From a virus, in IMG/VR virus record IMGVR_UViG_3300017739_003809, positions 1 through 56,804 of that record: a stretch of DNA of 56,804 bases; one strand, given 5' to 3'. The notes beneath the pieces are model-generated. The model was not told where the DNA came from. It worked only from the letters and a program-made list of their open reading frames with translations, and did not search any database. The position numbers and the translations under genes were made by a program. Below are positions 21,796-56,445 of the stretch, piece after piece. Every line of letters begins with the position of its first letter. Position 1 is the stretch's first letter.

Positions 21796-22941
21796 ATGGC
21801 ATATCATTTTTTATACCCCGAAAAAGACTCTACAATATATTCTCATCCTAATAGAAGAGATTTAAATACAGGTATTGTAGAAACTTTAGCATTAGATTCT
21901 GAAAAAGGGATTAATGATAGTTTATATTATCCTCCTAGAATACTTTTACAATTTAAGGATTCAGAACTAAAAACAGTACTAAAAGATAAAGTATCTGGTA
22001 ATTTTTCGGCTAGTTTAAAATTATATGCTACTGAGTTTAGTAAAAATTTACCCATAACCCAAACAGTAGAACTATATCCCCTATCAGAATCATGGAATAA
22101 TGGTACACAAAGGTATAATGACCATCCTAACTTTAATGGGATTATTAGTAATGGATGTTCATGGTTATATAAAGATAATGGAACAGATAAAACCTCATGG
22201 GGTACTTTAACTACAGGAGTAACTGGGAGTTTTTCGGGTAGTGCTATCCCTTCTGGTGGTTTATGGTATACAGGTAGTGGTTTTGAAACCACCCAATCTA
22301 TAGGCATAACTAATAATTTTGATTTAGATTTTAATATTACCAACCAAATTAAAAAGTTTTCTTCAAGCCTATTTTTATCACAAACATACCCTGATGGCAT
22401 TCCTAATAATGGATTTATTCTCTTAAGAGAAAACGATATATTTAATAATTCAACAGATCAGGGGTGCCTAAAATACTTTTCAGTAGATACTCATACTATT
22501 TTTTCTCCTACTTTAACTATTAAGTGGGACGATTCCAGTTATGTAACAAGTAGTGGAGCAACTGCACTAGACAGTGGTAAAATACAAGTAAGCATTAATA
22601 ATAATAGAGGAGAATACAGACAAACGGAAGAAAAAACTTTTAGGATTAGTTCTAGAAAACAATATCCTACTAGAACATTTACAACTTCTTCAAACTTTTT
22701 AAATGTAAATTATTTAACAGCTAATTCATATTATAGTATAGAAGATTATACATCTAAAGAAACCATTATACCTTTTGATACTAGTTATACTAAATTAAGC
22801 GCAGATTCTGAGGGAATGTTTTTTAAATTAAATATGCAAGGTTTACAACCTGAAAGATATTATAGAATTTTAATCCGCCATGATAATAATGATGGAATTC
22901 AAATTTATGATGACAATTATTATTTTAAAGTAACTAGATAA
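21796..22941 (+). CDS. Virion structural protein with DNRLRE-like beta domain
   Basis: The 381-residue protein starts with FLYPEKDSTIYS and has RILLQFKDSEL, ASLKLYATE and ELYPLSESWNNGT in order. This resembles DNRLRE domains, which are beta-sandwiches on extracellular proteins. A C-terminal part (about 260-380) looks like a fibronectin-type or other beta domain. It sits in the tail block and overlaps the next gene by one base, so it is likely a baseplate or fibre part. The domain match is by motif only. Confidence 0.72.
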   Translation: MAYHFLYPEKDSTIYSHPNRRDLNTGIVETLALDSEKGINDSLYYPPRILLQFKDSELKTVLKDKVSGNFSASLKLYATEFSKNLPITQTVELYPLSESWNNGTQRYNDHPNFNGIISNGCSWLYKDNGTDKTSWGTLTTGVTGSFSGSAIPSGGLWYTGSGFETTQSIGITNNFDLDFNITNQIKKFSSSLFLSQTYPDGIPNNGFILLRENDIFNNSTDQGCLKYFSVDTHTIFSPTLTIKWDDSSYVTSSGATALDSGKIQVSINNNRGEYRQTEEKTFRISSRKQYPTRTFTTSSNFLNVNYLTANSYYSIEDYTSKETIIPFDTSYTKLSADSEGMFFKLNMQGLQPERYYRILIRHDNNDGIQIYDDNYYFKVTR

Positions 22942-51003: not shown

Positions 51004-52596
51004 ATGGCAGATATTAAAGCAATTATAAAGCAGGAATTTGTCAAATCAGCAAGCGATCCTGTTTATTTTATGAAAAAATATTGTTGGATTCAACATCCAA
51101 CAAGAGGTAGAACACAGTTTAATCTATACCCATTCCAAGAAAAAGTATTAGGGCTACTAAATAAACACGATAAGTCAGTAATTCTAAAATCAAGACAACT
51201 TGGTATTTCGACACTTTCAGCAGGTATAGCTTTACACATGATGTTGTTTCAAAAGGATAAAAACATCCTTGTAATAGCAACAAAACAAGAAACAGCTAAA
51301 AACCTAGTAACTAAAGTACGATTTATGTATGATCAGTTACCTAGTTGGTTAAAATTACCCACAGTAGAAAATAACCGATTATCACTACGACTTAAAAATG
51401 GATCCCAAATTAAAGCAGTATCTGCAGCAGGCGATGCTGGTAGATCAGAAGCAATTTCACTCCTAGTAATTGATGAGGCAGCATTTATTGAAGAAAATAG
51501 AATTGAAGAAATTTGGGGTTCAGCACAGCAAACACTTGCTACTGGTGGTAGGGCAATTATATTATCTACACCAAATGGTACTGGTAACTGGTTCCATAGA
51601 CAATGGGCTAAAGCACAAGATGGCACTAGTGGATTTACTCCTATTAGATTACCATGGACGGTGCACCCAGAACGAAATCAAGAGTGGAGAGATAAACAAG
51701 ATGATGAATTAGGGGATAGAATGGCAGCACAAGAATGTGACTGTGATTTTACTACCTCAGGAGATACAGTATTCCCACCTGAAGTAATAAATCATATTGA
51801 AGCTACAATGTTAAAAGACCCTTTAGAAAAAAGAGGTATAAATAGTAGTTTATGGGTTTGGGAATATCCTGATTATACTAGGCAATATATGGTTGTAGCT
51901 GATGTAGCAAGAGGTGATTCAAAAGACTATTCAGCATTTCACATTATAGATATTGAAACTTGTACCCAAGTAGCTGAATTTAAAGACCAAATCCCAACTA
52001 AAGATTTTGGCCGCATATTATTTAATATAGCAACTGAGTATAATAAAGCGCTACTTGTAATTGAAAATGCAAATATTGGTTGGGCTACTATACAAGAAGT
52101 AATTGATATGGGTTATGAAAATTTATATTATAGCCCTAAAGACGAAAAGTTTACTCGTGATGCAGAAGCATATATTGCTAAGGGGTATGATTTAATAGAT
52201 AAATCAAAAATGGTACCTGGTTTTACTATGTCACTTAGAACTAGACCATTAACAATTGCTAAACTAGATGCATATATTAAAGAACAAAGTATACAAATCC
52301 AGTCGAGACGCACATTAGATGAATTAAGAACATTTGTTTGGAAAAATGGTAGACCTGAAGCCCAAACAGGATATAATGATGATTTAACTATGTCTATAGC
52401 TACAGCATGTTATGTTAGAGATACTGCATTAAAGTTTGCCCAACAAGGAGTAGATTTAACCCGAGCTATGCTTAATAATACTACTAAGGCTTCATATAAC
52501 CCATTTTTTAGTTCAACTAAAATTAATGATCCTAAACAAGCATATAAAATGAAAGTAGGAGGAAAAGATGAAGATTTGTCTTGGCTTTTAGGTTAA
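51004..52596 (+). CDS. 17: Terminase large subunit (gp17-like)
   Basis: The 530-residue protein has the ATPase motifs of T4-type terminases: ILKSRQLGIST (Walker A-like, ~60-70), LLVIDEAAFI (Walker B, ~154-163) and LSTPNGTGN (coupling motif). The C-terminal nuclease part has VVADVARGDSKDYSAF with metal-binding Asp residues. It pumps DNA into proheads and cuts concatemers. It lies after a terminator; an ACGTATATACG stretch sits directly before the ATG. Confidence 0.96.
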   Translation: MADIKAIIKQEFVKSASDPVYFMKKYCWIQHPTRGRTQFNLYPFQEKVLGLLNKHDKSVILKSRQLGISTLSAGIALHMMLFQKDKNILVIATKQETAKNLVTKVRFMYDQLPSWLKLPTVENNRLSLRLKNGSQIKAVSAAGDAGRSEAISLLVIDEAAFIEENRIEEIWGSAQQTLATGGRAIILSTPNGTGNWFHRQWAKAQDGTSGFTPIRLPWTVHPERNQEWRDKQDDELGDRMAAQECDCDFTTSGDTVFPPEVINHIEATMLKDPLEKRGINSSLWVWEYPDYTRQYMVVADVARGDSKDYSAFHIIDIETCTQVAEFKDQIPTKDFGRILFNIATEYNKALLVIENANIGWATIQEVIDMGYENLYYSPKDEKFTRDAEAYIAKGYDLIDKSKMVPGFTMSLRTRPLTIAKLDAYIKEQSIQIQSRRTLDELRTFVWKNGRPEAQTGYNDDLTMSIATACYVRDTALKFAQQGVDLTRAMLNNTTKASYNPFFSSTKINDPKQAYKMKVGGKDEDLSWLLG

Positions 52597-54521: not shown

Positions 54522-55361
54522 ATGAAACCTAAGCACTCCAAGTACAAAAATACGGGGATACTATTTGAATTGTTAACTAGACAAATTACGTCTGAAACTA
54601 TTGCTAATAGGTCTCCTAAAGCTGTAGGTATTTTAAAAAACTTTTTTAGTAGCAATTCTACTCTTTTAAAAGAATATCAGATATATCATGCTTTATTAAA
54701 TAAAAAATTTGATAAAGAAGCAAACGCTACAGTTTTAATCGAAACATTAGCTAATGCCCATAATAAATTAAATAAATCTGTTTTAAGAAGAGAAAAATAT
54801 AATTTAGTTAGAGAAATAAAAGATAATTATAATTTAGAAGATTTTTTTAAAGCTAAAATCCCAAATTATAAAGTATATGCTAGTGTTTATAATTTATTAG
54901 AAAATCAAACAGCAAACCCATTGCATATAGTTGATTCTAAAGTTATAATATTAGAACACATTATAGGTAAAGGCCTTCCTAATAAACCCAAAAAAGATAT
55001 GGTTATGGAAGAATATGAGAAGTTTGATAAAGAAACTAGGGCTCTTACTTATAAAATGTTAATGGAAAAATTTAATGAAAAATATTCTAGGTTAAGTAAT
55101 AGTCAAAGAAAATTATTAAAAGAATATGTTTATAACATTTCTAATAGCCCTAAATTAAAGCGTTTTATTAATGAAGAAATTAATAAAGTAAAAGCTGAAA
55201 TTAAAGAATTATCTAATAATACAGATAAAGTTACCCAAATTAAATTAAATGAAATAGTAGGTTTAATAAAACCTCTATGTAAAAAATCATCTGTTCATGA
55301 TGATAATGTAATTAACCTTTTAAATTATTATGAATTGGTTAATGAATTAAAATCATTATAA
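54522..55361 (+). CDS. Conserved head-region protein of unknown function
   Basis: The 279-residue helical protein begins KPKHSKYKNTGILFELLTRQIT, a start seen in proteins at this place (between portal and prohead protease) in many T4-like marine phages. The rest is charged and helical with no known domain. Its position suggests a role in head assembly. It overlaps the next gene by TAATG. Confidence 0.75.
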   Translation: MKPKHSKYKNTGILFELLTRQITSETIANRSPKAVGILKNFFSSNSTLLKEYQIYHALLNKKFDKEANATVLIETLANAHNKLNKSVLRREKYNLVREIKDNYNLEDFFKAKIPNYKVYASVYNLLENQTANPLHIVDSKVIILEHIIGKGLPNKPKKDMVMEEYEKFDKETRALTYKMLMEKFNEKYSRLSNSQRKLLKEYVYNISNSPKLKRFINEEINKVKAEIKELSNNTDKVTQIKLNEIVGLIKPLCKKSSVHDDNVINLLNYYELVNELKSL

Positions 55362-55519
55362 TGAAAATAGATGAACTTAGGAATATTATTCGCGAACTCA
55401 TTAAAACAGAGTTAGAAGAAGCTAGTACATTAGGAACTGGTGCTTCTTTTAATCCTGGATCTTCTGAAGCTTACAGTACTCCTTTTGCATTCGGAAAAAA
55501 AAGAAAACGTAAAAATTAA
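55361..55519 (+). CDS. Small protein with GTGASF/TPFAF motif
   Basis: A 52-residue frame starts at the stop of the preceding gene. It has the amphipathic start MKIDELRNIIRELIKTELEE, then GTGASFNPGSSEAYSTPFAF and a basic tail (GKKRKRKN). The GTGASF...TPFAF pattern is common in small proteins of marine phages. Function is unknown; tight coupling in the head block supports a real gene. Confidence 0.75.
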   Translation: MKIDELRNIIRELIKTELEEASTLGTGASFNPGSSEAYSTPFAFGKKRKRKN

Positions 55520-55524
55520 TAGTT

Positions 55525-55665
55525 ATGCCAAGAAAAATTAATGCCTTTGATTTTAATAAAAACAATAGTAAAGTAAATAGACCAGGTATTCATGCTAAAA
55601 CTAAGCATAGTAACCATAAAAGCTCTAAAAATTATAGAAAATTAAATAGAGGACAAGGAAGATGA
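55525..55665 (+). CDS. Small very basic protein before the prohead protease
   Basis: This 46-residue product starts MPRKINAFDF, contains GIHAKTKHSNHKSSKNYRK and ends RGQGR. Short basic proteins with this VHAKTK ... RGQGR pattern precede head-protease genes in related phages. It overlaps the protease start by ATGA. A nucleic-acid or head-assembly role is possible. Confidence 0.75.
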   Translation: MPRKINAFDFNKNNSKVNRPGIHAKTKHSNHKSSKNYRKLNRGQGR

Positions 55666-56135
55666 AACAATTACTTATAGAACACATGCCATTTAAAGTA
55701 GATAAACTCTTAGTTGAGCAATCTATTAAAGAAAATAGACCCCTTAGAGTAAGCGGTATTATCCAAAGAGCTGGTGTTAAAAACCACAACGGTAGAATCT
55801 ATGAGCAAAAAATTCTTGAAAGAGAAATTAAAAAATATATTAATGGCCCCGTTAGGGAAAAAAGAGCCTTAGGCGAATTAGACCATCCTGAATCTTCTGT
55901 AATTAATTTAAATAATGTATCTCATAATATAGTAGAAGTTACTATGAAAGGAAATGATGTGCACGGTGTAGTAGAAATATTAACTACACCTGCTGGAAAT
56001 ATTTTAAAAGAATTATTCCGTTGTGGTGTTACAGTAGGAATATCCTCTAGAGGAATGGGCTCAGTAGAAGAAAATTCGGACGGAATATTAATGGTACAAG
56101 AAGATTTTGATTTACTTTGTTTTGATATGGTATAA
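55662..56135 (+). CDS. 21: Prohead core protease (gp21-like), C-terminus frameshifted
   Basis: The 157-residue frame contains the T4 gp21 signatures: ALGELDHPESSVINLNNVSH (catalytic His), VEILTTPAGNILKELF, GVTVGISSRGMGSV (catalytic Ser) and QEDFDLLCFDMV. Family members then continue with a V-S-x-P-S-x-x-x-A-Y segment; here a TAA at 56133-56135 intervenes and the expected sequence continues in the -1 frame (next feature). The catalytic residues lie before the break. The enzyme cleaves scaffold, capsid and internal head proteins at L/I-x-E sites. Confidence 0.9.
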   Translation: MKQLLIEHMPFKVDKLLVEQSIKENRPLRVSGIIQRAGVKNHNGRIYEQKILEREIKKYINGPVREKRALGELDHPESSVINLNNVSHNIVEVTMKGNDVHGVVEILTTPAGNILKELFRCGVTVGISSRGMGSVEENSDGILMVQEDFDLLCFDMV

Positions 56136-56266
56136 CCCCATCAACTCCCGGTGCCTATATGTCCCCTATGAATGAGGGAGTAAGTACCCCCACTAAAGAT
56201 TATACTAAAGTTAATAATGTTATTAGGGATATTATCTGTGATAATACTGGGGTGTGTAAGTGTTAA
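56136..56266 (+). pseudogene. Out-of-frame C-terminal remainder of the gp21-like protease
   Basis: In the -1 frame from base 56135 the sequence reads TPSTPGAYMSPMNEG, then KDYTKVNNVIRDIIC and ends CKC before a stop at 56264-56266. This is what the gp21 family has after its CFDxVS segment. One base seems to be missing near 56133 (GTA-TA-ACC where GTA-TCA-ACC is expected). Either the gene is truly truncated, it uses frameshifting, or the sequence has an error. Confidence 0.75.
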
Positions 56267-56445
56267 TCCTTACCAAAGTATCCTCTAATAAAATTAATAA
56301 TAAAGATAGCCGATGCTAAAGGCCATCCTAATACAACCCAAAATCTATCCATCCAATCCATAGGATATCCTGCTTTTACAATAGCTCCTTCAAGAAGAGC
56401 TGATGTTATAACCCCAATTAAAAAGTATTTTGCTAATAAAATCAT
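56263..56445 (-). CDS. Small membrane protein on the reverse strand
   Basis: The 60-residue product has two hydrophobic helices (about 4-22 and 35-53) around a short loop with YPMDWMDRFW, and a basic-acidic end (RGYFGKD). The composition and Trp/Gly-Trp-Pro pattern look like a real small phage membrane protein, possibly holin-like. It is the only convincing leftward gene of the window and its stop overlaps the stop of the shifted protease end. Confidence 0.68.
   Translation of the reverse strand: MILLAKYFLIGVITSALLEGAIVKAGYPMDWMDRFWVVLGWPLASAIFIINFIRGYFGKD

Follow-up and report, generated by a model that had tools for sequence, protein, structure and literature searches.

The prohead protease gp21 is essential in phage T4, where cleavage occurs after L/I-x-E, and the autocleavage of this enzyme has been called a major gap (PMC9026906). 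Diverged homologues with a catalytic triad of like type, gp245 of phage SPN3US and gp175 of phiKZ, undergo C-terminal autocleavage after a glutamate (PMC5694885). In gp245 the triad consists of H77, S153 and D178, the Asp lying 25 residues past the Ser, and autocleavage was shown at E203 (PMC5694885). Truncation of the SPN3US protease by an amber mutation within the propeptide leaves an enzyme that is active and absent from proheads (PMC7411985). The mutant is non-viable, and the authors inferred that the C-terminal region targets the protease into the prohead (PMC7411985). Here we describe a protease gene of this kind in a single IMG/VR virus record, all 56,804 bases of which (the window) were analyzed.

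Identification of the prohead protease gene

The 157-aa product of the gene as written (Table 1) matches the Pfam family PF03420 Peptidase_S77 with 95.5 bits (cut-off 27, E 4e-27, residues 25-151), and a phmmer search aligns it to T4 gp21 (PDB 5jbl) with E 5e-18 over residues 28-151. The putative catalytic triad (His75, Ser129, Asp155) is kept in this short form. The segments GELDHP and GISSRGMGS and the D of FDMV align with GELNHP, GVSSRGLGS and GVDAV of T4, and are invariant in 10 of 10 aligned sequences. The ORFs at positions 51004, 52627, 54522 and 56637 follow the gene order of relatives around the protease. The part that would complete the folded domain, from the PS loop through the L/I-x-E site, is missing in the frame as written and is found in the -1 frame; this missing domain end is a lesion, not the mark of another family. 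Judged by its sequence, the gene is an ordinary T4 gp21-like prohead protease gene, the frame of which is broken in one record only.

Several small ORFs adjoin the protease. Two of them, located directly upstream on the plus strand and kept in relatives, resemble T4 genes 67 and 68 in their place; part of the 52-aa protein reappears downstream of the protease in two relatives (L008 and L011). A hydrophobic 60-aa ORF is convergent to the protease, and the stops of this ORF and of the protease tail overlap. Twenty relatives have a homologue next to the protease (28-77% identity), therefore the ORF is probably a real gene encoding a small membrane protein.

Table 1. Coordinates of the protease gene, its -1-frame continuation and neighbouring small ORFs in the window
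Feature	Coordinates	Strand	Remarks
Small ORF directly upstream of protease	55361..55519	+	52 aa
Small ORF directly upstream of protease	55525..55665	+	46 aa
Prohead protease (T4 gp21-like, Peptidase_S77), as written	55662..56135	+	157 aa, stop TAA 56133-56135
Sole stretch permitting a -1 shift	56126..56135	+	Between the -1-frame TGA 56123-56125 and the zero-frame TAA
Protease tail in the -1 frame	56135..56266	+	Last 43 codons and stop (56264-56266); encodes the invariant Pro-Ser loop, a predicted strand, M-N-E putative autocleavage site and C-terminal helix
M-N-E motif in the -1 frame	56168..56176	+	Putative autocleavage site
Hydrophobic small ORF	56263..56445	-	60 aa, probable small membrane protein gene

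The interrupted reading frame

The zero frame of the protease closes with TTT GAT ATG GTA TAA, about 670 bases short of the contig end. The first-pass annotation had placed this stop exactly where the family continues, which both the ORF reading and the alignment to relatives confirm. It had also proposed a continuation in the -1 frame. The anticipated tail, TPSTPGAYMSPMNEG...CKC and a stop, is indeed found there. The -1 frame continues as TPSTPGAYMSPMNEGVSTPTKDYTKVNNVIRDIICDNTGVCKC and is open as ITPSTPGAYMSPMNEGVSTPTKDYTKVNNVIRDIICDNTGVCKC up to its stop, and codon for codon the 43 residues of the tail match those of intact relatives. The cause suggested at that time, a single missing base, gains support from a 606-column alignment of the window gene with its eight closest relatives, which are 86-90% identical to it in DNA across the core. 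The only gap in this alignment is one position, at 56133/56134, and it falls in the window. The codon-by-codon match together with the single gap at the site argues that the -1-frame tail is not a product of chance. The claim that some 43 residues following the catalytic Ser are lost is slightly imprecise: the last 44 of 201 residues are gone, but about 28 residues after the Ser are retained, including the putative Asp.

Conservation of the frame in relatives

We scanned IMG/VR with the 157-aa product as the query and obtained 80 loci; since this query ends at the break, the first scan has no bias towards intact genes. The second scan, with the 48-sequence alignment A1 as the query, may slightly favour intact genes. 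Together with four loci from cultured phages the two scans yielded 163 loci. Of these, 160 are intact, meaning that the frame spans 176 residues or more, and none is short. Contig ends interrupt the other three, one of which reaches beyond the site and is still in frame there. All first-scan loci that reach the site stay in frame, mostly as V-S-(T/N/S)-P-S. The nearest relatives in IMG/VR show 92-96% protein identity, and a scan of genome_contigs returned three distant relatives only (53-55% identical). Searches with exact DNA patterns from the tail and from the vicinity of the site retrieved no second near-identical record from viral_contigs.

Over 43 codons, the tail of the window gene and that of its relative L005 differ by 15 synonymous and 3 non-synonymous changes. 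The dN/dS ratios of the tail are 0.04-0.15 between the window and relatives, and 0.01-0.22 among the relatives themselves. Two codons of the window tail are unseen in relatives, and neither gives a new amino acid. This substitution pattern indicates that the tail has remained under selection as protein up to the very recent past or the present. Because the differences are mostly synonymous, the break is either very recent or not real.

The C-terminal region and its putative autocleavage site

Of 147 distinct relatives, 146 carry a [LIMV]-x-E motif no more than 25 residues after the PS pair, and in 131 the next residue is G or S. The exception, L084, also has I-M-E; its late-starting match left the anchor outside the searched part, so the motif escaped the count. 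The motif Glu is invariant in alignment A1. Given the known specificity of T4 gp21, we infer a self-cleavage step at this motif, which is likely the C-terminal autocleavage site of the protease family.

In L005 numbering, the family possesses invariant P160, S161 and E172 past V157. The AlphaFold model of intact L005 (mean pLDDT 80.5, falling below 50 only at residues 173-177) matches the T4 structure 5jbl with a Foldseek E of 1e-10 and rmsd of 1.3. Its strand 150-157 ends at the stop of the window frame, and it is followed by a further strand (166-169) and a helix (181-196). The short form lacks the Pro-Ser loop, the last predicted strand, the [LIMV]-x-E(G/S) site and the C-terminal helix. 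Since one strand stops at the break and strand 166-169 lies beyond it, the short form according to this model ends inside the folded domain, and not at a processed end.

Origin of the break

To see whether other genes in the window are affected, 39 of its ORFs were compared with the ORFs of five related contigs. The protease alone is cut short while otherwise closely similar, and none of the other comparable window genes is clearly broken by a frameshift. The ORF at 22941, also flagged as short, encodes a divergent protein (31% identical) that differs at both ends, and several more ORF pairs differ in length only alongside divergence. A single indel over 57 kb of draft contig fits either an assembly error or one real mutation. 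A chimeric assembly was rejected, as there is no consistent jump in the identity to relatives at the site.

The break is most likely not a biological feature. We assign a probability of about 0.66 to a consensus error near the end of this draft viral contig, through which one base would be missing at 56133/56134. The real genome would then carry this base, and the living phage would make a full-length protease of the usual size (about 201 residues) that would cut the head scaffold and capsid precursors. An error is likelier than a mutation, given that T4 requires this gene, that the break is unique and that the site is close to the contig end. Homopolymers are the commonest context of indel errors, whereas the missing base lies outside any homopolymer, and the error rate of the collection is apparently low (about 160 copies of the gene show no break); both observations count against an error. 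The former, like the clean look of the remaining contig, favours a genuine and very recent one-base deletion, carried by a defective or minority genome in a mixed population that would not mature its heads unless complemented. The tail also still looks selected, as it would with a very young lesion. This possibility appears rather unlikely, since an assembled consensus should reflect the majority and the loss of an essential protease C-terminus should not reach it; moreover, no relative shares the break. Likewise, the essentiality of gp21 in T4 and the non-viability of the SPN3US mutant make a fixed break in a thriving phage unlikely. As about 160 related genes all lack this break, it most likely reflects a sequence error, or a dead genome copy, rather than programmed frameshifting.

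The first-pass annotation had also considered a programmed event, for which comparison with relatives and inspection of the site yield no support. Programmed -1 ribosomal frameshifting would produce both the short and the full-length protease, and a shift after GTA would indeed give a product as long as those of relatives, with Ile replacing the conserved Ser158. The upstream -1-frame TGA confines any shift to the ten bases given in Table 1. No slippery heptamer X XXY YYZ lies within them (0 of 6 in-frame heptamers in 56117-56138 qualify), and there is no homopolymer at the site for transcriptional slippage. Downstream, the pseudoknot-free folding energy of 56130-56230 equals that of shuffled sequences (z 0.12), the Rfam search gave sub-threshold matches only, and the frame switch occurs in 0 of 160 relatives. 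Such frameshifting is therefore highly improbable. It is very improbable that the 157-aa protein itself works as a short protease, for instance as a pre-processed form able to dispense with the C-terminal propeptide. Equivalents of the His, Ser and Asp are present in it, and T4-type proteases are thought to undergo C-terminal processing (PMC9026906, PMC5694885). However, the stop comes about 15 residues ahead of the conserved [LIMV]-x-E site, so that P160, S161 and the predicted strand 166-169 of the folded part would also be lost, and the targeting role proposed for the SPN3US C-terminus argues against such a form. Very improbable, too, is a real deletion in a phage that either lives with a propeptide-less short protease or regains the frame through a recoding signal of unrecognised type. 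Reassignment of TAA was rejected: of 59 window ORFs checked, 47 end in this codon, and reading through it would in any case not give the tail, which lies in another frame. Re-initiation at the ATG at 56159 was also rejected, there being by eye no purine-rich ribosome-binding site ahead of it.

Comparison with known proteases

With a consensus error as the preferred explanation, a false lead is removed: in the living population the gene is best regarded as full-length, pending reads. Retention of the Glu of the C-terminal [LIMV]-x-E motif by the examined relatives makes the proposed T4-type self-cleavage testable in small homologues. Proteases of the T4-like phages L002-L013 from IMG/VR are closely similar to that of the window (92-95% amino-acid identity for the closest) but intact across the site, as are those of Microcystis phage Mel-JY01 and the Flavobacterium phages immuto (51-54% identity). 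The Ser-Asp spacing of the window protease is similar to that of SPN3US gp245, but the SPN3US enzyme cleaves after A-x-E. The gene resembles T4 gp21 in sequence and in catalytic residues, and by gene order it would lie, as in T4, between portal (upstream) and scaffold (downstream) genes. It differs in that the window frame ends after the Asp-bearing strand, whereas T4 gp21 and the relatives continue via the PS loop to L/I-x-E and beyond.
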